From an uncultured Eggerthellaceae bacterium (lineage in GTDB: Bacteria; Actinomycetota; Coriobacteriia; Coriobacteriales; Eggerthellaceae), in contig CATKXW010000002.1 in assembly GCA_949840905.1 (NCBI GenBank), positions 1 to 64,000 of the forward strand: a DNA stretch of 64,000 nucleotides. Direction: 5' to 3'. Under the pieces are notes generated by a model. It saw only the letters and a program-made list of their open reading frames with translations, searched no databases and was not told the origin of the DNA. A program made the position numbers and the translations under genes. Each line of letters begins with the position of its first letter. Positions within the stretch are counted from its first letter, which is position 1. This document shows, one piece after another, positions 16,028 to 24,156 of the stretch.

Positions 16028-19009
16028 ATGACGGATCGGATGGATCAGGGCCTGCGCGGCCGTATCGCGCTGGCCGTGGTCGTAGGCGTGGTCATCGTGG
16101 CCGCTCTCACGTGGTTCATGACGACCAATTCCGCGCGCATCCTGGCGCAGAACACCCAGTATCTGGAGAGCTCGACCTCCCAATCGGTGCTGCGCATCAA
16201 CGAGATCATCGACAACGCCGAGATGAGCGTGCGCTCGGTGGCCCAGATATACGGTGACGACCTGGGGGCTCCTGATGTGAGCACCCGGGATCTGACCGAG
16301 CTCGCTGCCGACACCCCCTTCGACTACTTCTTGTTCTGCGCCCCTGACGGCACCGTCTATTCCGCCACCGGCGATGCGCGGGACGGTTCGGATCGGGAGT
16401 ACTACCTCAAGGGGATGCTCGGGCGATCCGGGGTGTGCGATGTGGAGCTGTCGGTGTTCGACGACGAGAGCATCCTGGTGTTCTACGCGCCGGTGCGCTA
16501 TGAGGAGCAGATCGTGGGCGTGCTCACCGGCGTGTTCACCGAGCGCACCATCAGCGACCTTCTGACCACCTACTTCTTCGGTACCCAGACCTCCACCTAT
16601 CTGTGCGGATCCGACGGCACCATCGTGGGCGAGTCGGCTACCATCACCACTTCGTCGCGCTTCGATAACCTCTTCGACCTGTTCTTGGGCGACGAGTTCC
16701 ACGGCGACGTCAGCCGCAGCCAGTTCGAAGAGGCGTTCAGCAGCGGCACCTACCTCACCTTCACCTACGAGGGCACTGCCGGCACCGGCATCGCCAATGC
16801 CATGGCGCTGCAGAGCCGCGACTGGATGTTGGTGCGCACCTTCCCGTCGAACATCACGGCGGCCATGGTGAACCGCGCGAATCAGGCCGGTATCGTACTG
16901 GCGCTACTGGTGGTGGGCTCTTTGCTGGCGTTCATCGTGCTCATGCTGATGCGATCGGTACGGCTGCGAAAGCGCCTGCAATCGGAGAACAAGCGGGCCA
17001 CCAACATCATCGATGCGTCGGCGAACCTGTTCAAGCGCTTCGTGGTGGTGGATCTTGCCGCGAACACCTACGAGTACGTGCGCTCTGACGGCAGCTTGGA
17101 CGACCTGCCCTTGCAAGGCGAGTACAACATGTTCCGCTACTATTGGCGAAACCGCATACCTGAGGGTCCCGACCAAGATAAGATGAACGAGGCGTTCACG
17201 CGCAAGAGCATCGTGGAGGGTCTGGCGGATGGCCGGTCGTATCTGCAGTACGACTATCGGGTGAGCGATGGGGAGGGAGGCTTGCGCTGGCTGCAGCTGT
17301 CCATGGTGCCGCTCTCTCATGACCTGAAAGGTGCGGTGGAGAGCGTGCTGATGACGGTGCAAGACGTCACCGACGTGAAGCATCGCGAGATCGCGCAGCG
17401 CAACGCTCTGGAAGACGCGCTGCGTATGGCCGAGCACGCTTCGAAGGCGAAGAGCGATTTCCTGAACAATATGTCCCACGATATCCGCACCCCTATGAAC
17501 TCCATCATGGGTCTGACCGCCATCGCCCAGATGCACAGCGACGAGCCCGAGCACGTGAAGGATTGTCTTGGGAAGATATCCGTCGCTTCGCGCCATCTGC
17601 TGGGCCTCATCAACGAGGTGCTGGACATGGCGAAGATCGAGAGCGGCGACTTCCGCCTGTCGGAGGAGGATTTCAGTCTGCCGGAGACGGTGGAGGGCCT
17701 GCTGGGCATCATGACGGCGCAGATCGACGCCAAGGGTCAAGAACTGAAGGTGGAGATAAGCGACATCGAGCATGAGAACGTCATCGGCGATCCCATGCGC
17801 TTGCAGCAGGTGTTCGTCAACATCATGGGCAATGCGGTGAAGTTCACGCCGGAAGGCGGATCCATCGGGCTGGGCATCGCCGAGATGCCCTCGCGCATGC
17901 CCGGCTACGGCTGCTATCGCTTCACCTTCAGCGACACGGGCTGCGGCATGAGCGAAGAGTTCGTGGAGCGTATCTTCGAGCCGTTCTCTCGCGCCAACGA
18001 CACCCGCGTGACCGCTGTGGAGGGCACGGGCCTCGGCATGTCCATCGTGCGCAACGTGGTGACGCTGATGAACGGCACCATCGATGTGGAGAGCACCTTG
18101 GGCGAGGGCACCACCTTCACCGTGACCGTGTTCTTGAAGCTGGCCGAAGGGGAAGAGACCGTATTCGACGACCTGCGCGGCGTGCGCGTGTTGGTGGTGG
18201 ATGATGACGTGGAGGCCTGCGAGAGCGCGTGCGGCCTGCTCGATCAGATCGGCATGGAGGCCGACTTCGTGACGAGCGGACGAGCAGCGGTCGAGCGCAT
18301 CGCTTCGGAGCGCGATCGCAGCGATGCCGATCATCCGCCCTATCGGGTCATCATCTTGGACTGGCGCATGCCGTCCATGAGCGGTCTGGAGACGGCGCGC
18401 GCCATCCGCGAGCGCTTGCAGGTGAGCATCCCCATCATCATCCTGTCGGCTTACGACTGGTCGATGATCGAACAGGAAGCGCGCGAGGTGGGCGTGGACG
18501 CGTTCATCTCCAAGCCCATCTTCCGTTCGCGGTTGGCCCATACCATGCATAACCTGCTGTCCGGTGATGGCGAAGAGGAGATGAGCGAGGCAGAGCTTCT
18601 GGTTTCTTGCGATCTGGCGGGCAAGCGCGTGCTCTTGGTGGAGGATAACGCTTTAGCGGCTGGTATCGCCGAGGACATCTTGGGCGCCACCGGGCTTTCG
18701 GTGGTCCATGCCGAGAACGGTCGGGCGGCCGTCGATGCGCTGGCCCAGGCCGAGCCTGACAGCTTCGATCTGGTGTTCATGGATGTGCAGATGCCGGTGA
18801 TGAACGGCTATGAGGCCACCAAGGCCATCCGCGCGCTCGGGCGGGAAGGCCGTGAGGACCTGGCAGCTATCCCCATCATCGCGCTGACAGCGGATGCCTT
18901 CACCGATGACGTGGAACGCACCCGTGCAGCTGGCATGAACGCCCATATGGCCAAGCCTTTGCAGATCCCCACCCTGGTGGAGATGTTGAACGCGTGGCTC
19001 GGTGACTAA
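16028..19009 (+). CDS. Membrane hybrid sensor histidine kinase with two receiver domains
   Basis: A 993-aa sensor kinase. A transmembrane helix (about 13-31), a roughly 250-residue extracytoplasmic sensor of Cache type, and a second helix (about 287-309) form the input. A PAS-like segment precedes the HisKA domain, with phospho-histidine H484 in NMSHDIRTPMNS. The ATPase domain has the N box (NAVKFTPEGG), G1 (DTGCGMS), F and G2 (GTGLGMS) boxes. Two receivers follow, with acceptors D778 (LDWRMPSMSG) and D919 (MDVQMPVMNG). The likely route is H484 to a receiver, to the Hpt protein, to the REC-HD-GYP-GGDEF regulator. The stop overlaps the GTG start of the next gene by eight bases. Confidence 0.95.
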   Translation: MTDRMDQGLRGRIALAVVVGVVIVAALTWFMTTNSARILAQNTQYLESSTSQSVLRINEIIDNAEMSVRSVAQIYGDDLGAPDVSTRDLTELAADTPFDYFLFCAPDGTVYSATGDARDGSDREYYLKGMLGRSGVCDVELSVFDDESILVFYAPVRYEEQIVGVLTGVFTERTISDLLTTYFFGTQTSTYLCGSDGTIVGESATITTSSRFDNLFDLFLGDEFHGDVSRSQFEEAFSSGTYLTFTYEGTAGTGIANAMALQSRDWMLVRTFPSNITAAMVNRANQAGIVLALLVVGSLLAFIVLMLMRSVRLRKRLQSENKRATNIIDASANLFKRFVVVDLAANTYEYVRSDGSLDDLPLQGEYNMFRYYWRNRIPEGPDQDKMNEAFTRKSIVEGLADGRSYLQYDYRVSDGEGGLRWLQLSMVPLSHDLKGAVESVLMTVQDVTDVKHREIAQRNALEDALRMAEHASKAKSDFLNNMSHDIRTPMNSIMGLTAIAQMHSDEPEHVKDCLGKISVASRHLLGLINEVLDMAKIESGDFRLSEEDFSLPETVEGLLGIMTAQIDAKGQELKVEISDIEHENVIGDPMRLQQVFVNIMGNAVKFTPEGGSIGLGIAEMPSRMPGYGCYRFTFSDTGCGMSEEFVERIFEPFSRANDTRVTAVEGTGLGMSIVRNVVTLMNGTIDVESTLGEGTTFTVTVFLKLAEGEETVFDDLRGVRVLVVDDDVEACESACGLLDQIGMEADFVTSGRAAVERIASERDRSDADHPPYRVIILDWRMPSMSGLETARAIRERLQVSIPIIILSAYDWSMIEQEAREVGVDAFISKPIFRSRLAHTMHNLLSGDGEEEMSEAELLVSCDLAGKRVLLVEDNALAAGIAEDILGATGLSVVHAENGRAAVDALAQAEPDSFDLVFMDVQMPVMNGYEATKAIRALGREGREDLAAIPIIALTADAFTDDVERTRAAGMNAHMAKPLQIPTLVEMLNAWLGD

Positions 19010-19967
19010 GAGGCGCTCCCATAGCAGATCGGCGAGGGGACCGATCCGCTCCCGCTCGCTCTTCGGTGCCTTGGCGGGCGCCTTGGCGCTGGGCGCGCTG
19101 GGCGGGTGTGCGGGCGCAGCCTCGGGCGACATCGAGGGCAGCACGAGCGGTCCGCCCTACGAGGAGCCGACCACGGTGCTGACCGTTTCTCTCGATGGGA
19201 TCGCCGAGCGGCGCAGTGGCGCAGCGCTCATCGACACCGCCCACTGCGACGAGGGCTACGCCGCCGCATCAGCTGTGGGTCGCAATCGCTTGAAGCTGCA
19301 GGTGAGCTGCGGTCAGATGAGCTACAACTACGATCTGCCGCAGGATGGCACCCCTATCGTGGTGCCCATGAACATGGGGGATGGCTCCTACGAGCTCAGC
19401 GTGCTGGAGAACGCTTCGGGCGCCATCTATGCCGAGGTGATATCCCAGAGCGCTGCGGTGAGCTTGGAGAGCGAGTTCGCGCCCTATCTGCGTCCCAACG
19501 TGTTCTGCCGCTACACGGCCGATAGCCAATGCGTGACGAAGGCGCGCGAGCTTGCCGAGCACGCCGTGAACCAGGGTGATGTGGTGCGCGCCATCTACCG
19601 TTGGATGATGGATGCGATAAGCTACGATGATGAGAAGGCACAGGAGCTATCGGGTACGAGCGGCTATGTTCCCGATCCCGACGCCACGTTGCAGAGCGGC
19701 TCCGGCATCTGCTTCGATTACGCGTCGTTGGCCGCGGCGATGTTCCGTTCGCTGGGCATCCCGTGCCAGATAGTGACCGGTAACGTGGCTCCTGAGGACG
19801 TGTACCATGCATGGAACCTCATATATATAGACGGGGAATGGGCGAGCGCGTTGATCACGGTAGGGCCTGACCAGTGGACGCGCATCGACCTGACCTTCGC
19901 AGCCAGCGAAGGCGATGACTACCTGCGGCGCGATGACGCTTCCTATACGGAGCGCTATCGCTATTAG
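19002..19967 (+). CDS. Transglutaminase-like lipoprotein
   Basis: A predicted surface lipoprotein of 321 aa. A basic N-terminus, a hydrophobic segment and a lipobox-like LGGC put the lipidated cysteine at C36. The C-terminal half is a transglutaminase/cysteine-protease core with a complete catalytic triad: C237 (SGICFDYA), H269 (YHAWN) and D296 (RIDLTF). Such domains cross-link or cleave proteins or peptidoglycan peptides outside the cell. The GTG start at 19002 lies inside the kinase gene's last codons, so the two are probably co-translated. The pilus-like operon begins 22 bases downstream. Whether it acts on those proteins is inference. Confidence 0.85.
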   Translation: MTKRRSHSRSARGPIRSRSLFGALAGALALGALGGCAGAASGDIEGSTSGPPYEEPTTVLTVSLDGIAERRSGAALIDTAHCDEGYAAASAVGRNRLKLQVSCGQMSYNYDLPQDGTPIVVPMNMGDGSYELSVLENASGAIYAEVISQSAAVSLESEFAPYLRPNVFCRYTADSQCVTKARELAEHAVNQGDVVRAIYRWMMDAISYDDEKAQELSGTSGYVPDPDATLQSGSGICFDYASLAAAMFRSLGIPCQIVTGNVAPEDVYHAWNLIYIDGEWASALITVGPDQWTRIDLTFAASEGDDYLRRDDASYTERYRY

Positions 19968-19989
19968 AAGGGGAGGGGGCGAAGACGGG

Positions 19990-21051
19990 ATGACCATGGC
20001 GAACATGACATTGACCAGCGCTCAGGTGGGCGAGTTCTGCGAGAGCATGGCGCTCATGCTGTCGGTGGGCATCACGCTGGCCGAGGGCTCCTCGATGCTG
20101 GCCTGCGGCTACGGGGAAGACACTGCGGAGCGCTCCGTGCTCATGGCGCTGTATCGACCCTTGGCGCAGGGTTCTTCGCTGGCCGATGCTATGGAGGCGA
20201 GCGGAGCGTTTCCAGCCTATGCCTCATCGATGGTGCGCAACGGCGAGCGCACGGGTCGGCTCGAGGCCACCTTGCGCTCTTTGGCCCGCTACTACGAGGA
20301 GCAGGCGCGCCTGTTCGCGCGAGTCCGCACCGCGGTGGCCTATCCATGTGCGCTGCTCTGCGTGATGAGCGTGATCTTGGCCTTTTGCGTCATCGGCATC
20401 CTGCCGGTGTTCTCGGGCGTCTATGACACCATGGCCGGTGGTCTTGCAGCCTCTTCGGCCGCCCTGGTGGGCGCTGGGATGGTGGTGGGCTGGACGGCGC
20501 TGGCCATCACCTTGGTGCTGACGGTGTTCGCGCTGTTCGTGTTCATCAGCTGTCGCAGCGAGCGGGGACGTGCGCGGTTGCTGCGCGCGGGCCAGAAGCT
20601 GCCGGGACTGCGCGGAGCGCTCCATGCCATCGCGCTCAGTCGCTTCATGGCTACGTTGGCCGTGTACGTAGCCTCTGGTAGCCATAGCGATGAGGCTGTG
20701 GCCTCTGCGCTGGCCGCAGTGGAGCACGAGGGCTTGAAGGAGCGGGTCGCAGCCGCCCATGAGGAGATGATCCGACCCATTCGCCCGTTGGGGCTCGTCC
20801 ACGCGCTGACCCAGCATGGCGTGATCGACGAGCTAGCCGCGCGCATGCTGGAATTCGGCACGCGCACCGGACAGATGGATGCGGGACTGTCGAAGCTGGG
20901 CGATTCGCTGTTCGATGATGGGATCGAGCGCCTCGATAGGGTCATCGACATGGTGGAGCCGGTGCTCGTCGCACTGCTGACGGTGGCCATCGGCACCACG
21001 CTGGTCGCGGCGATGCTGCCGTTGGTGGGCATCTTGGGCACCATCGGCTGA
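19990..21051 (+). CDS. Type II secretion/type IV pilus inner-membrane platform protein (PilC/GspF-like)
   Basis: A 353-aa polytopic membrane protein with two tandem T2SSF-type domains. The first starts near FCESMALMLSVGITL and the second near LSRFMATLAVYVASG. Hydrophobic spans lie after each domain (about 115-140, 155-185 and 325-350), the usual PilC/GspF topology. In known machines this platform connects the cytoplasmic ATPase with the growing pseudopilus. ATG 19990 follows a purine-rich GGGAGGGGG; 19996 and 20005 are alternative ATGs. It heads a six-gene same-strand operon that ends with pilT. Confidence 0.88.
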   Translation: MTMANMTLTSAQVGEFCESMALMLSVGITLAEGSSMLACGYGEDTAERSVLMALYRPLAQGSSLADAMEASGAFPAYASSMVRNGERTGRLEATLRSLARYYEEQARLFARVRTAVAYPCALLCVMSVILAFCVIGILPVFSGVYDTMAGGLAASSAALVGAGMVVGWTALAITLVLTVFALFVFISCRSERGRARLLRAGQKLPGLRGALHAIALSRFMATLAVYVASGSHSDEAVASALAAVEHEGLKERVAAAHEEMIRPIRPLGLVHALTQHGVIDELAARMLEFGTRTGQMDAGLSKLGDSLFDDGIERLDRVIDMVEPVLVALLTVAIGTTLVAAMLPLVGILGTIG

Positions 21052-21097
21052 GCGGGCTTCGAGACGATAGAGGGAAGAGAAGGAGCGAGAAGGCGCG

Positions 21098-21532
21098 GTG
21101 AGCGGGGGAAGAGGACCACAGATCCCATCGAAGACGCGTAGCGAGCTGTGGCAGCGCGCGGGCGTTGCGATGGGCGATGCCTCTGCCAGGGAGCGGATCG
21201 ACCACAGGGACGCTGGTCACGGCGCTCCTGCGATCCGCGGTGCGCTCGGGGCGGGGCTGCTCGCGGTCGGCGGCTCTCTGCTGGCGCTCTTCTTGCTATG
21301 GGCGGCGGCGGGCACCTATGCTCATGTCTCTCATGAGCAGGGGGCCGTGACGCTGCGGGAGAGCATCCTGGCCGCTGCCGACCAGTGCTATGCGGTGGAG
21401 GGCGCTTATCCGCCCAGCCTCTCTCGTTTGGAGGAGGACTACGGGCTTTGGGTGAACCATGAGGGCTATGACGTGCTCTACGAGGCGTTCGCGAGCAACG
21501 TGGCGCCCACCGTGGTGGTGAAGGCCCTATGA
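21098..21532 (+). CDS. Small single-span protein of the pilus-like operon (1)
   Basis: Function unknown. The 144-aa protein has a charged N-terminus of about 45 residues, one hydrophobic segment (about 47-70) and a C-terminal region. The latter reads like the helical face and first strand of a pseudopilin (AADQCYAVEGAYPPSLSRL), a pattern common after the pilin transmembrane helix. There is no recognisable prepilin-peptidase site (no G-F-x4-E before the helix). The GTG start at 21098 has GAGAAGG four bases upstream, and an alternative is ATG 21170. The stop overlaps the next gene (ATGA). Minor-pilin-like is my best guess. Confidence 0.7.
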   Translation: MSGGRGPQIPSKTRSELWQRAGVAMGDASARERIDHRDAGHGAPAIRGALGAGLLAVGGSLLALFLLWAAAGTYAHVSHEQGAVTLRESILAAADQCYAVEGAYPPSLSRLEEDYGLWVNHEGYDVLYEAFASNVAPTVVVKAL

Positions 21533-22086
21533 GCGCGTTTCGTAACGGCTTTCCTGCGGGCCGTCTCTTGCGGCTCGGTCATGAAGAGGGGCCGCCCGAG
21601 AGCGCCCGGGCGTTCACGCTCGCTCTCTTCGCGGTGTTCGTGTTGGCGATGCTGGCGATGCTGCTGTTCGGCCTTCAGGCCTATCGGGACATCGTCGAGG
21701 AGCAAGATCGGAACGATGAGCGCAGGCTCGCCTCCGGCATCCTGATGAACACGGTGAAGGCGAACGATTCGCTGGATGCTCTGAGAGTGGAGGAGTTCGA
21801 GGGCAACGCCATGCTCTCGCTGTTGCAGCGTACAGACGCTGGTGAGTTCGTGACGCGCCTGTATGTGCAGAATGGCCATCTCATGCAGCAGTACACCGCG
21901 GCGACGACGCCGCGAGAGGCGGCAGCGGGCCATGAGCTGTTCCCGACAGAGTCGTTCTCGGTCGACTACGAGGGAGGGCTGCTGACCATGGGGACCGATC
22001 CGGTCACGGTATCGGTCGCTCTGACATGTGCTCAAGGACCGCTAGATGATGCGCGGGCGGACGATGGAGAAGGGGGCGTGTCCTGA
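21529..22086 (+). CDS. Small single-span protein of the pilus-like operon (2)
   Basis: Function unknown. The 185-aa protein has one transmembrane helix (about 29-52, FTLALFAVFVLAMLAMLLFG) followed by an amphipathic stretch and a mainly polar extracytoplasmic domain. The segment just after the helix (ASGILMNTVKANDSLDAL) recalls a domain of unknown function found beside pilus-type genes in related bacteria, perhaps DUF4860; I cannot confirm this. No canonical prepilin cleavage site precedes the helix. It is translationally coupled at both ends: ATGA with the previous gene and TGATG with the next. Confidence 0.72.
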   Translation: MSAFRNGFPAGRLLRLGHEEGPPESARAFTLALFAVFVLAMLAMLLFGLQAYRDIVEEQDRNDERRLASGILMNTVKANDSLDALRVEEFEGNAMLSLLQRTDAGEFVTRLYVQNGHLMQQYTAATTPREAAAGHELFPTESFSVDYEGGLLTMGTDPVTVSVALTCAQGPLDDARADDGEGGVS

Positions 22087-22484
22087 TGGGTCGTGTGGAT
22101 CATGACCGTCGGGCATCGACGATGGGTCCCGCTCGCTTGAGCGGGGCTATCGAGGCCATGGTCTACGGGGCCGTGTTCGCCGTCGCTCTCGCGCTGGTCG
22201 CGCTCCTGTTCGGTGCGGCTGCATCCGAGTCCCATCGGGCGGCCGTTCTGGAGAGGGCTGTAGAGCTCTCGAACGAAGCGGCCGAGACGTTCATGGCGAC
22301 GCCTGTTGACGAGGATGCGTCCTATGAGCAGGATGGCCTGCGCCTCGAGCGCACCGTGGGGCGCATCGCTGAGCCCTTCGGGTTCCTCTATACGGCCGCC
22401 ATCGTGGTGTACGAGGGTGATGAGGCGGTCTATGAGCGCACGGCCGTGCGCTATATGAGCGCCCGAAGCGGAGGTGAGAGCTGA
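22086..22484 (+). CDS. Small single-span protein of the pilus-like operon (3)
   Basis: Function unknown. The 132-aa protein has one hydrophobic helix (about 22-48) followed by a short helix and a small beta-type domain (YEQDGLRLERTVGRI), the proportions of a minor pseudopilin. The sequence before the helix lacks a clear G/A-x4-E cleavage site, although a glutamate occurs at the start of the helix (SGAIEAMVYG). The start and stop both overlap the neighbours (TGATG), indicating strict co-expression. Confidence 0.68.
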   Translation: MGRVDHDRRASTMGPARLSGAIEAMVYGAVFAVALALVALLFGAAASESHRAAVLERAVELSNEAAETFMATPVDEDASYEQDGLRLERTVGRIAEPFGFLYTAAIVVYEGDEAVYERTAVRYMSARSGGES

Positions 22485-23074
22485 TGGCGCGGCGTGATGG
22501 CACGACGCGCTTGGGCATGGTCGGCCTGCTGATGCTGGTGGTGACCTTGTGCCTGGCAGTGCTGGGAGTCTTGGCCGTGGTGACGGCTCATGGCGATGCG
22601 GTGCTGTCCGAGCGTCAGAGCGAAGCGGTCGGCTGCGGCCAAGCGGCCGATGCGGCCGCCCAAGGCTTCTTGGCCGAGGTGGACAGCTTCTTGGCGCGCA
22701 CTGCCGCCGAGAAGGGGCCTTCGGTGCGCGCGAGCGTACTGTCGGCCGAACTGATAGAGGAGCTGCCGAAGATGGTCGATGCCCTCCTTCGTTCCTCCGG
22801 AGGTGCGGCGGAGATGTTCGCAGAGCCTTCTCCTCTCGTGGTCGATGCCGCTGCGCTCTCCGCCGAGGAGCTGCGCGGATACCTCGGCGAGGAGGCTCGC
22901 GGCGATACCGCGTCCTATCCTTGCGGCATCCGCGCCGTCTTCACCGTGGAGGGCGCTCGCACCTTGGATCTCGTGATCGCCCTTCGGAGCGATCTGACCT
23001 ACGAACCGATCGATCGCTCGCTCACCACCGAGTGGACGGAAGGGCCGTCCGCTCCGCGATTTTGGGAAGGATGA
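22484..23074 (+). CDS. Small single-span protein of the pilus-like operon (4)
   Basis: Function unknown. The 196-aa protein has a very short basic N-terminus, a strong hydrophobic helix (about 10-34) and an extracytoplasmic helical stalk (AVLSERQSEAVGCGQAADAA). A globular remainder ends in a beta-rich stretch. The arrangement resembles larger minor pilins such as GspK/PilX, which also open with a hydrophobic helix followed by a long stalk, but sequence alone does not prove it. GAGGTGAG is the ribosome-binding site, and the stop overlaps the region where pilT begins. Confidence 0.68.
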   Translation: MARRDGTTRLGMVGLLMLVVTLCLAVLGVLAVVTAHGDAVLSERQSEAVGCGQAADAAAQGFLAEVDSFLARTAAEKGPSVRASVLSAELIEELPKMVDALLRSSGGAAEMFAEPSPLVVDAAALSAEELRGYLGEEARGDTASYPCGIRAVFTVEGARTLDLVIALRSDLTYEPIDRSLTTEWTEGPSAPRFWEG

Positions 23075-23082
23075 TACCGCCG

Positions 23083-24156
23083 ATGAAACTCGAAGAGCTG
23101 TTGCAGGAGATGGTGAACAGGAACGCATCCGATGTGTTCATCGAAGCAGGCTTGCCGCTGACATTCCAAGAGGACGGGCGACAAGTGCGCATCGACAGCG
23201 CTCCTTTCACGCCCATCGACACCGAAGCGCTCATCACTGAGGTCTATTCCTTGGCGCGTCGCTCCATGGAGCCGTTCATCCAGGCTCATAACCACGATGA
23301 CGATTTCTCGTTCTCCTTGCCCGGTGTGGGGCGCTTTCGTGTGAACGTGTTCCGTCAGCGAGGCTCTTTGGGGGCCGTCGTCCGCGTGATACCGTTCTCG
23401 CTGCCCACCGCTGAGGAGCTGCACATACCCGAGCCGATCATGAAGCTTTCGCAGCTCCGGCGCGGGCTGGTGCTCATCACGGGCCCGGCCGGTGCTGGCA
23501 AGACCTCCACGCTCGCCTGCTTGATCGATCGCATCAACCATGAGCGCACGGGTCATATCATCACCATGGAAGATCCCATCGAGTACGTCCATCGCCATGA
23601 TGGGTGCATCGTCACTCAGCGCGAGGTGCCCACCGACGTGGCCACCTACGACGAAGCGCTCCGCAGCGCCATGCGCGAGGCTCCCGATGTCATCTTGTTG
23701 GGGGAAATGCGCGATGCCTCCACCATCGCCACGGCCATGACCGCGGCTGAGATGGCTCAGCTTCTCTTCTCTACGCTGCACACCACAGGAGCAGCCTCCA
23801 CCATCGACCGCATCATCGACGCATTCCCGGCCACCCAGCAGCGGCAGGTGCGCATGCAGCTGTCGCTGGTGCTGCAGGCGGTCATCAGCCAGCAGCTGGT
23901 GCCCACCATCGATGGCGGGGTGGTGCCTGCCTTCGAGGTGATGGTGGCCAATCCTGCTCTGCGCAACCTCATTCGCGAGGAGAAGACCCACCAGATAGAC
24001 AGCGTGTTGGCGGCCAGTGGTGAAGCGGGTATGATGACCATGGATCAGAGCCTCTACGACCTGGCTCGCCGCGGCGTCATCACGGTCGATATGGCCCTCA
24101 AGCATAGCGTACACCTCGATGCGCTCAAGATGCGGTTCGAGATGGAAGGCCGCTAA
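23083..24156 (+). CDS. pilT: PilT-type twitching/retraction ATPase
   Basis: A hexameric secretion-type ATPase; PilT homologues depolymerise type IV pili by hydrolysing ATP at the base. The 357-aa protein carries Walker A GPAGAGKT (134-141, K140), an Asp-box region, the Walker B GEMRD typical of PilT rather than the GEIRD of many PilB proteins, and a His box (STLHTTGAAS). The PilT-like tail TIDRIIDAFPATQQRQVR is also clear, and the N-terminus (LLQEMVNRNASDVFIEAG) is typical. ATG 23083 has AAGGA 11 bases upstream; ATG 23071 overlaps the previous stop but has almost no spacing. It is the only ATPase in the operon. Confidence 0.9.
   Translation: MKLEELLQEMVNRNASDVFIEAGLPLTFQEDGRQVRIDSAPFTPIDTEALITEVYSLARRSMEPFIQAHNHDDDFSFSLPGVGRFRVNVFRQRGSLGAVVRVIPFSLPTAEELHIPEPIMKLSQLRRGLVLITGPAGAGKTSTLACLIDRINHERTGHIITMEDPIEYVHRHDGCIVTQREVPTDVATYDEALRSAMREAPDVILLGEMRDASTIATAMTAAEMAQLLFSTLHTTGAASTIDRIIDAFPATQQRQVRMQLSLVLQAVISQQLVPTIDGGVVPAFEVMVANPALRNLIREEKTHQIDSVLAASGEAGMMTMDQSLYDLARRGVITVDMALKHSVHLDALKMRFEMEGR

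Follow-up and report, generated by a model that had tools for sequence, protein, structure and literature searches.

A predicted type IV filament operon with PilT as its only dedicated motor gene in gut Coriobacteriia and Lachnospiraceae

Introduction

Can a type IV pilus-like machine run when the only motor encoded with it is PilT? In the textbook type IV pilus (T4P) a PilB-type extension ATPase is the essential motor and prepilin cleavage is the entry step. The question is raised by an operon in a stretch of 64,000 nucleotides (hereafter the window; contig CATKXW010000002.1, G000:C2:1-64000) from the 1.98 Mb, 98.5 % complete assembly of an uncultured Eggerthellaceae bacterium (GCA_949840905.1). 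A first-pass annotation, made from the sequence of the window alone, had described six coupled open reading frames (ORFs), encoding a PilC platform, four small proteins and PilT, and it offered two explanations: the genes missing from a normal pilus might lie elsewhere, or a minimal pseudopilus, possibly uncleaved, might be driven by a PilT-type motor. All six genes were found where it had placed them. It had missed a seventh, encoding a transglutaminase-like lipoprotein, and the operon (window 19002-24156, + strand) reads transglutaminase-like lipoprotein - PilC - B - DUF4860 - D - E - PilT. Nor had it recognized the apparent descent of the small proteins from pilins, the spread of the system over two phyla or its association with competence genes.

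By its PilT, its PilC and the apparently pilin-descended proteins B, DUF4860 and D, the operon is assigned to the type IV filament superfamily. The reading we prefer, to which we give a probability of about 0.5, is that it encodes a reduced type IV filament machine in which a minor-pilin-like complex on PilC would be driven by PilT, perhaps for transformation.

Results

Pilus genes in the rest of the source genome

A search of the source genome recovered two T2SSE ATPases, the operon PilT and the CpaF of a Tad locus on contig C17 (L082, G000:C17:10001-30000). This locus looks complete, with CpaF, TadB, TadC, two Flp-type pilins and a TadE-type protein. The search for PilB that the first-pass annotation had proposed found none in the 98.5 % complete assembly, nor, in consequence, the locus with both PilB and PilD that would have spoken for an ordinary pilus. 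Because there is no PilB and the sole other pilus gene set is that of Tad, the possibility that the rest of a normal T4P lies elsewhere in this genome is rejected, within the limits of its completeness. The single A24 peptidase is short and of the CpaA type, and lies after ligA on C9, a contig separate from the operon and from the Tad locus. The operon has no PilM, PilN or PilO, for which no genome-wide profile search was made. No GspE-type ATPase occurs in the genome, and the operon contains neither GspG nor a secretin (secretin families were not searched genome-wide). ComEC is present (G000:C1:53164-53961, E 1.3e-44).

The operon ATPase

PilT is the only dedicated motor gene of the machine. 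A tree of 75 ATPases placed the operon PilTs from both phyla in which the operon occurs in one clade (100/100), nested within PilT and outside the PilTs that adjoin PilB. Other models scored the protein far below their cut-offs (ComGA 115.5 bits vs 300; PilB 100.2 bits vs 675.65). The operon PilTs have retained the catalytic Glu (GEMRD), the Asp box, the His box and the motif A[IL]RNLIRE. Their Walker A motif is GPAG[AS]GK, whereas canonical PilT and PilB have GxTGSGK, with Thr in place of Ala, and the His of ASD-x-H in PilT is replaced by Phe in the operon proteins. On these motifs the operon PilT is predicted to be an intact enzyme that is distinct from canonical PilT.

Ancestry of the four small proteins

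Pfam and NCBIfam searches of the window proteins gave no confident family assignment for B, D or E, and Pfam scans of further members of these three groups returned only stray weak matches, including Tt1218 pilin, T2SSI and PilX_N. As the first-pass annotation had observed, none of the four small window proteins carries a classical class III site (Gly-1 with Glu+5); no major pilin with a class III signal (G|xxxxE) was recognized among them, lone prepilins not having been scanned for genome-wide. Conserved positions are nevertheless evident in the alignments. B has invariant G, P, Y, Y, N and P residues, D has an invariant Glu+5 (39/39) with Gly-1 in just four of the 39 sequences, and E has no Glu+5 but an invariant Gly (39/39) ahead of its membrane helix. 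The D profile aligned in register with canonical minor pilins of the PilV type encoded in the same genomes at 90-91 % (hhalign), a figure inside the range of 25-98 % at which canonical pilin sets match one another. E is probably PilX/GspK-like, on the strength of a weak PilX_N match in one member and the conserved Gly.

Relatives of the operon in other Clostridia carry the sites that its own proteins lack. The operons L311, L312 and L313 contain PilB-PilT-PilC-PilA followed by proteins bearing class III sites; one L311 protein lies above both Pfam cut-offs, for DUF4860 (29.2 bits, cut-off 25) and for N_methyl (22.6 bits, cut-off 21.2), and a search with the B profile recovered GG|FTLIELIVV proteins from L311 (3e-14) and L312 (1e-14), the match in L313 being weak (7e-4). 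A second set of operons has PilT first, in the order PilT-PilC-B-DUF4860-D-E (L308-L310, L318 and L323), and a third, here called D-with-site, is mostly arranged as PilC-B-DUF4860-D-E-PilT (L302, L303, L305, L306 and L319-L322). Both sets have lost the site of B and kept a class III site in D, such as KG|FTLVE or G|FTLIE (L309 has Ala-1), and DUF4860 has kept its site in the D-with-site set only. Downstream of PilT in L302, L303 and L306 an RNase H-like gene was recognized by eye.

The PilC tree was read with the canonical set as outgroup, which is an assumption. Its order runs from the canonical PilCs with L311-L313, through the PilT-first and then the D-with-site operons, to the derived operons of Clostridia and Coriobacteriia, whose PilCs form one clade (100/100); the 50 rows of this clade define the derived-type operons. 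Within it B and DUF4860 have no class III site, D has Glu+5 and rarely Gly-1, and E has its Gly. Because relatives carry class III sites and D matches PilV, we infer that B, DUF4860 and D are descendants of type IV pilins. PilB and most class III sites appear to have been lost stepwise, with living intermediates still extant.

Comparisons of structure added little to this. No significant match was obtained when the PDB was searched with the four alignments, the matches of B to TcpA (E 0.88) and of D to PilA (E 1.7) being hints only; for DUF4860 there was no match below 0.001 (XcpGHIJK 0.18, EpsI:EpsJ 1.2). The single-sequence AlphaFold model of DUF4860 (predicted local distance difference test score, pLDDT, 52) has a 45-residue helix followed by four strands, which is the layout of a pilin, and like that of B (pLDDT 63) is too poor for fold comparison. 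A structural match of the small proteins to the standard minor pilins GspH-K, which would have counted against the first-pass annotation, was thus not found, in what is a weak test given the low-confidence models.

Distribution of the operon

DUF4860 was found in 26 of the 150 Coriobacteriia sampled, and conservation of gene order in this class, which the first-pass annotation had suggested examining, was complete: PilC-B-DUF4860-D-E-PilT was identical in 26/26 DUF4860-positive genomes, with couplings that were mostly alike. The operon also occurs in Lachnospiraceae, reached through a 16S probe (13/35 genomes, seven of the 13 without PilB), and in other Clostridia, with DUF4860 matches in a further 31/291 Clostridia, one of them counted before. 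Many of the Clostridia genomes are probably metagenome-assembled genomes (MAGs), and the genome counts are not independent because the sampled genomes are kin. Presence is patchy and varies even within genera. Recurrence of this gene order in gut bacteria of two unrelated phyla shows that the arrangement is not a chance one. No relatives were found in viral contigs in scans with B and PilT. Dorea sp. 5-2 (G156) has two copies of the whole seven-gene operon (L258, L259).

PilB was absent from 29 of the 49 derived-operon genomes. Among the Coriobacteriia carriers, 11/26 encode PilB next to a second PilT at another locus and 15/26 have no PilB; the latter include the single-contig assemblies G061 and G137. 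The PilB-type loci read in the 11 genomes hold PilC, PilD and PilMNO, and since such a pilus has its own PilT and PilC, which belong to other clades than those of the operon, the operon is a separate system even where it stands beside a PilB pilus. The suggestion that the rest of the pilus is encoded elsewhere therefore fails for the source genome and for the 29 genomes without PilB; a PilB pilus does exist in the 11 Coriobacteriia, but as a system with PilT and PilC of separate clades. In G332 (one contig of 2,969,292 bases, genome ~3.0 Mb) exactly one T2SSE match was obtained at E<=1e-15, which was the operon PilT, and neither PilB nor CpaF was detected at this threshold. In G428, a small MAG that carries the operon, CpaF likewise went undetected at E<=1e-15. 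An A24 peptidase was present in all 39 genomes checked. The other suggestion of the first-pass annotation, a PilT-type motor driving an uncleaved pseudopilus, thus stands as to the sole dedicated motor, and in part as to non-cleavage, the class III site being lost in B, DUF4860 and mostly D; it does not extend to E, with its invariant Gly-1, and the A24 peptidase in 39/39 genomes also speaks against it.

Association with transformation genes

Six derived DUF4860 operons lack an adjoining PilT (L262, L263, L264, L294, L295 and L296). In each of the six genomes a lone PilT adjoins ComM, with DprA present too in the five whose stretch extends far enough; three of the six have no PilB (G178, G365 and G407). 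Among the 13 Lachnospiraceae the lone PilT-ComM arrangement was seen for three PilT-less operons, and the extra PilTs examined in the other ten all lacked it. The lone PilT next to ComM/DprA suggests a link between the machine and transformation.

Blocks of a lone PilT, ComM (YifB) and DprA were located in Lachnospiraceae at L283:1725-5675, L284:1811-5799, L314:5394-9404, L315:2750-6690 and L316:2490-6452, the families of the block being confirmed by Pfam for L315. The block resembles a transformation operon with a retraction-type ATPase among its products. In one Clostridia genome a ComEA-like helix-hairpin-helix gene, recognized by eye, lies ~0.6 kb downstream of the operon PilT (L298:8721-9110, - strand).

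The transglutaminase-like lipoprotein

Immediately upstream of PilC, 23/26 Coriobacteriia and 13 of the 14 loci from Lachnospiraceae encode a homologue of the lipoprotein, with ~45-63 % identity within each of the two groups. The Cys, His and Asp residues presumed to form the catalytic triad were invariant in 50/50 sequences, many of which also have a lipobox. Most D-with-site and PilT-first operons have no lipoprotein next to PilC; the gene joined mainly in the derived form of the operon.

Gene arrangement in the window

The seven genes are listed in Table 1. The lipoprotein gene stops 22 nucleotides before PilC and E is separated from PilT by 8 nucleotides, while B and DUF4860 overlap by 4 nucleotides and DUF4860/D and D/E by 1 nucleotide each (ATGA/TGATG couplings). 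B has an alternative GTG start at 21098. PilC lacks ~58 N-terminal residues of GspF (GspF model match 58-397). Upstream, a gene for a large hybrid histidine kinase with receiver domains (window 16028-19009) overlaps the start of the lipoprotein gene (19002) by 8 nucleotides, as if the two were translationally coupled.

Table 1. Genes of the operon, with positions in the window
Gene product	Position	Strand	Features
Transglutaminase-like lipoprotein, predicted to be secreted	19002..19967	+	Operon gene 1; Transglut_core 71.7 bits (Pfam); start as given by the ORF finder; lipobox LGGC
PilC/GspF inner-membrane platform, 353 amino acids	19990..21051	+	T2SSF, two copies, 103 bits
B, single-span, putatively pilin-derived subunit (~101-120 amino acids)	21170..21532	+	ATG start; motif QCxAxEGxYPxSLxYLxxxYGL
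C (DUF4860 protein), putatively pilin-derived subunit	21529..22086	+	PF16152 46.5 bits, cut-off 25
D, predicted PilV/GspI-like minor pilin	22086..22484	+	Glu+5 present, Gly-1 lost
E, single-span protein, probably PilX/GspK-like	22484..23074	+	Invariant Gly ahead of the membrane helix; no Glu+5
PilT-family ATPase, 357 amino acids	23083..24156	+	TIGR01420 (PilT/PilU) 404.6 bits, cut-off 319.1

Discussion

The reduced type IV filament machine that we propose would have originated from a canonical PilB-PilT-PilC-pilin operon, which then lost its extension ATPase and its major pilin; PilC and PilT were kept, and a putative surface lipoprotein, the transglutaminase-like one, is part of the set. Its four single-span subunits would correspond best to a minor-pilin initiation complex, with D like PilV/GspI, E like PilX/GspK, and DUF4860 and B as further pilins, and may build on PilC a pseudopilus or tip complex that is short and anchored in the membrane. 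The PilT ring would rotate PilC in the retraction sense, seating the complex or drawing it inward; outward movement might be spontaneous, or brought about by the same PilT ring turning in reverse. The machine might serve to capture DNA and pull it in for ComEC-dependent transformation. There are precedents for parts of this scheme. In the MSHA pilus of Vibrio cholerae PilT is required for initiation, possibly maturing or seating the minor-pilin complex, and MshE drives extension (PMC9815625); if only an initiation step of this kind had been kept, minor-pilin descendants, PilC and PilT would be the expected remainder. PilT can take conformations for both senses of rotation, and it has been suggested that PilT/VirB11 motors might switch between them (PMC6858323). 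More tentatively, the operon may represent a distinct class of filament machine in two gut phyla, which has neither an extension ATPase nor a major pilin and whose derived form would depend little on prepilin processing; PilT alone would draw DNA or another ligand inward via a short complex of unprocessed minor-pilin descendants.

Several observations weigh against the proposed machine. Loss of the cleavage sites is incomplete, in E and in some D proteins, and B and DUF4860 have low-confidence models and no significant match in the PDB. Most carriers also hold the Tad CpaF, which could in principle help, only G332 and G428 arguing otherwise. In L320 (G471:C71:30000-42000, a MAG) PilC-B-DUF4860-D-E has no PilT nearby, and neither PilT nor PilB was detected genome-wide, possibly because the assembly is incomplete. 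As regards transformation, most of the six genomes in which PilT stands alone are closely related to one another. Of these lone PilTs the ATPase tree includes two (L248, L255), both in another PilT clade, so that PilT would have been substituted rather than relocated. ComEC occurs in all 26 Coriobacteriia carriers; as it also occurs in 141 of the 150 genomes of the class, its co-occurrence is uninformative and was dropped as evidence for transformation.

The minor-pilin set serves adhesin display in T4P and caps the pseudopilus in type II secretion systems. The same reduced machine could accordingly be imagined to act in surface adhesion, sensing or export, as a pseudopilus like that of type II secretion from which the operon's lipoprotein is displayed or released; retraction by PilT would serve for sensing or pumping. 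The resemblance of the subunits to a minor-pilin set fits this account, as does the transglutaminase-like gene, which is the most constant partner of the operon (directly upstream of PilC in 36/40 loci) and has its invariant Cys-His-Asp. The account is nevertheless somewhat unlikely: the lone PilT-ComM-DprA pattern indicates DNA, the basal operons mostly have no lipoprotein beside PilC, and no secretion substrate or pore is known. We regard as improbable a pilus extended by the Tad CpaF, with PilT for retraction only and two systems sharing motors. CpaF, a bifunctional ATPase in Caulobacter (reviewed in PMC11656802), is present in nearly all carriers, but in the source genome it comes with platforms of its own, TadB/TadC, and in G332 and, with the reservation that it is a small MAG, G428 the operon exists with no CpaF detected.

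That the operon is an inactive, decaying T4P remnant is very improbable. The losses of PilB, the major pilin and the class III sites and the patchy presence could be so read, but the reading frames are intact, gene order is the same across two phyla, translational coupling is conserved, and invariant residues persist in B, D (Glu+5) and E (Gly), in the PilT catalytic motifs and in the transglutaminase triad. A normal T4P with its missing genes elsewhere is scarcely credible: 11/26 Coriobacteriia carriers do have a separate PilB system, but 15/26, including the source genome and two single-contig assemblies, have none, the full T4P has its own PilT and PilC where present, and for the source genome the idea is refuted unless the ~1.5 % missing from the assembly contains PilB.

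Three further assignments were rejected. The operon PilT is not that of a distant T4P, as the PilT and PilC of full T4P loci fall in other clades; the operon is not a Tad component, having no CpaF/TadA, TadB/TadC or Flp pilins; and it is not a ComG operon, as its ATPase falls short of the ComGA model as given above and its platform scores 83.5 bits against a ComGB cut-off of 240.

Since defining features of type IVa, ComG and Tad systems are not found, we take the operon to be a variant within the type IV filament superfamily. It shares with the type IVa pilus the PilC platform, a TIGR01420 PilT, putatively pilin-derived subunits and a D protein in register with PilV/GspI, and ancestral-type operons with PilB survive (L311-L313); it differs in having no PilB, PilMNO, PilD or class III major pilin, in the loss of most cleavage sites, and in its own PilT clade (Walker A GPAGxGK) and additional transglutaminase-like lipoprotein. 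The minimal layout of the monoderm competence pilus (ComGA-GG, ComC), in which a single operon encodes a short ATPase, a platform and several small pilins, recurs here, in the basal L308-L310 even in the order ATPase-platform-pilins, but the ATPase is a PilT and no processed major pilin of the ComGC type was recognized. In the MSHA pilus PilT is likewise suggested to act on the minor-pilin complex in starting assembly, but that pilus retains the extension ATPase MshE as the driver of processive extension. A single ATPase may serve both directions in the Tad or type IVc pilus as well; CpaF, however, is of another ATPase lineage and works with TadB/TadC platforms and Flp pilins, and the source genome has a separate Tad locus. 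The pseudopilus tip of type II secretion (GspH-I-J-K) also comprises four small pilin-like subunits and has a GspF-like platform, but here the motor is PilT and the GspE-type ATPase, GspG and secretin are missing, within the searches described above.

In the literature searched, with subscription journals largely outside it, there was no mention of DUF4860 and no description of a PilT-only bacterial machine. Surveys have used PilB/ComGA as starting queries, or PilB for trees (PMC3244431, PMC6668835). The operon appears to represent a widespread system in which the extension motor and prepilin cleavage were lost step by step and constraint on PilT, PilC and the pilin descendants persisted, and DUF4860 gains a predicted identity as a derived type IV pilin. 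It makes testable whether a PilT ring alone can drive a machine, in either direction, and what role minor pilins have without a major pilin. For gut Coriobacteriia and Lachnospiraceae it provides a candidate DNA-uptake apparatus, and it may show how a type IV pilus apparatus runs on a retraction motor alone, most likely for DNA uptake.

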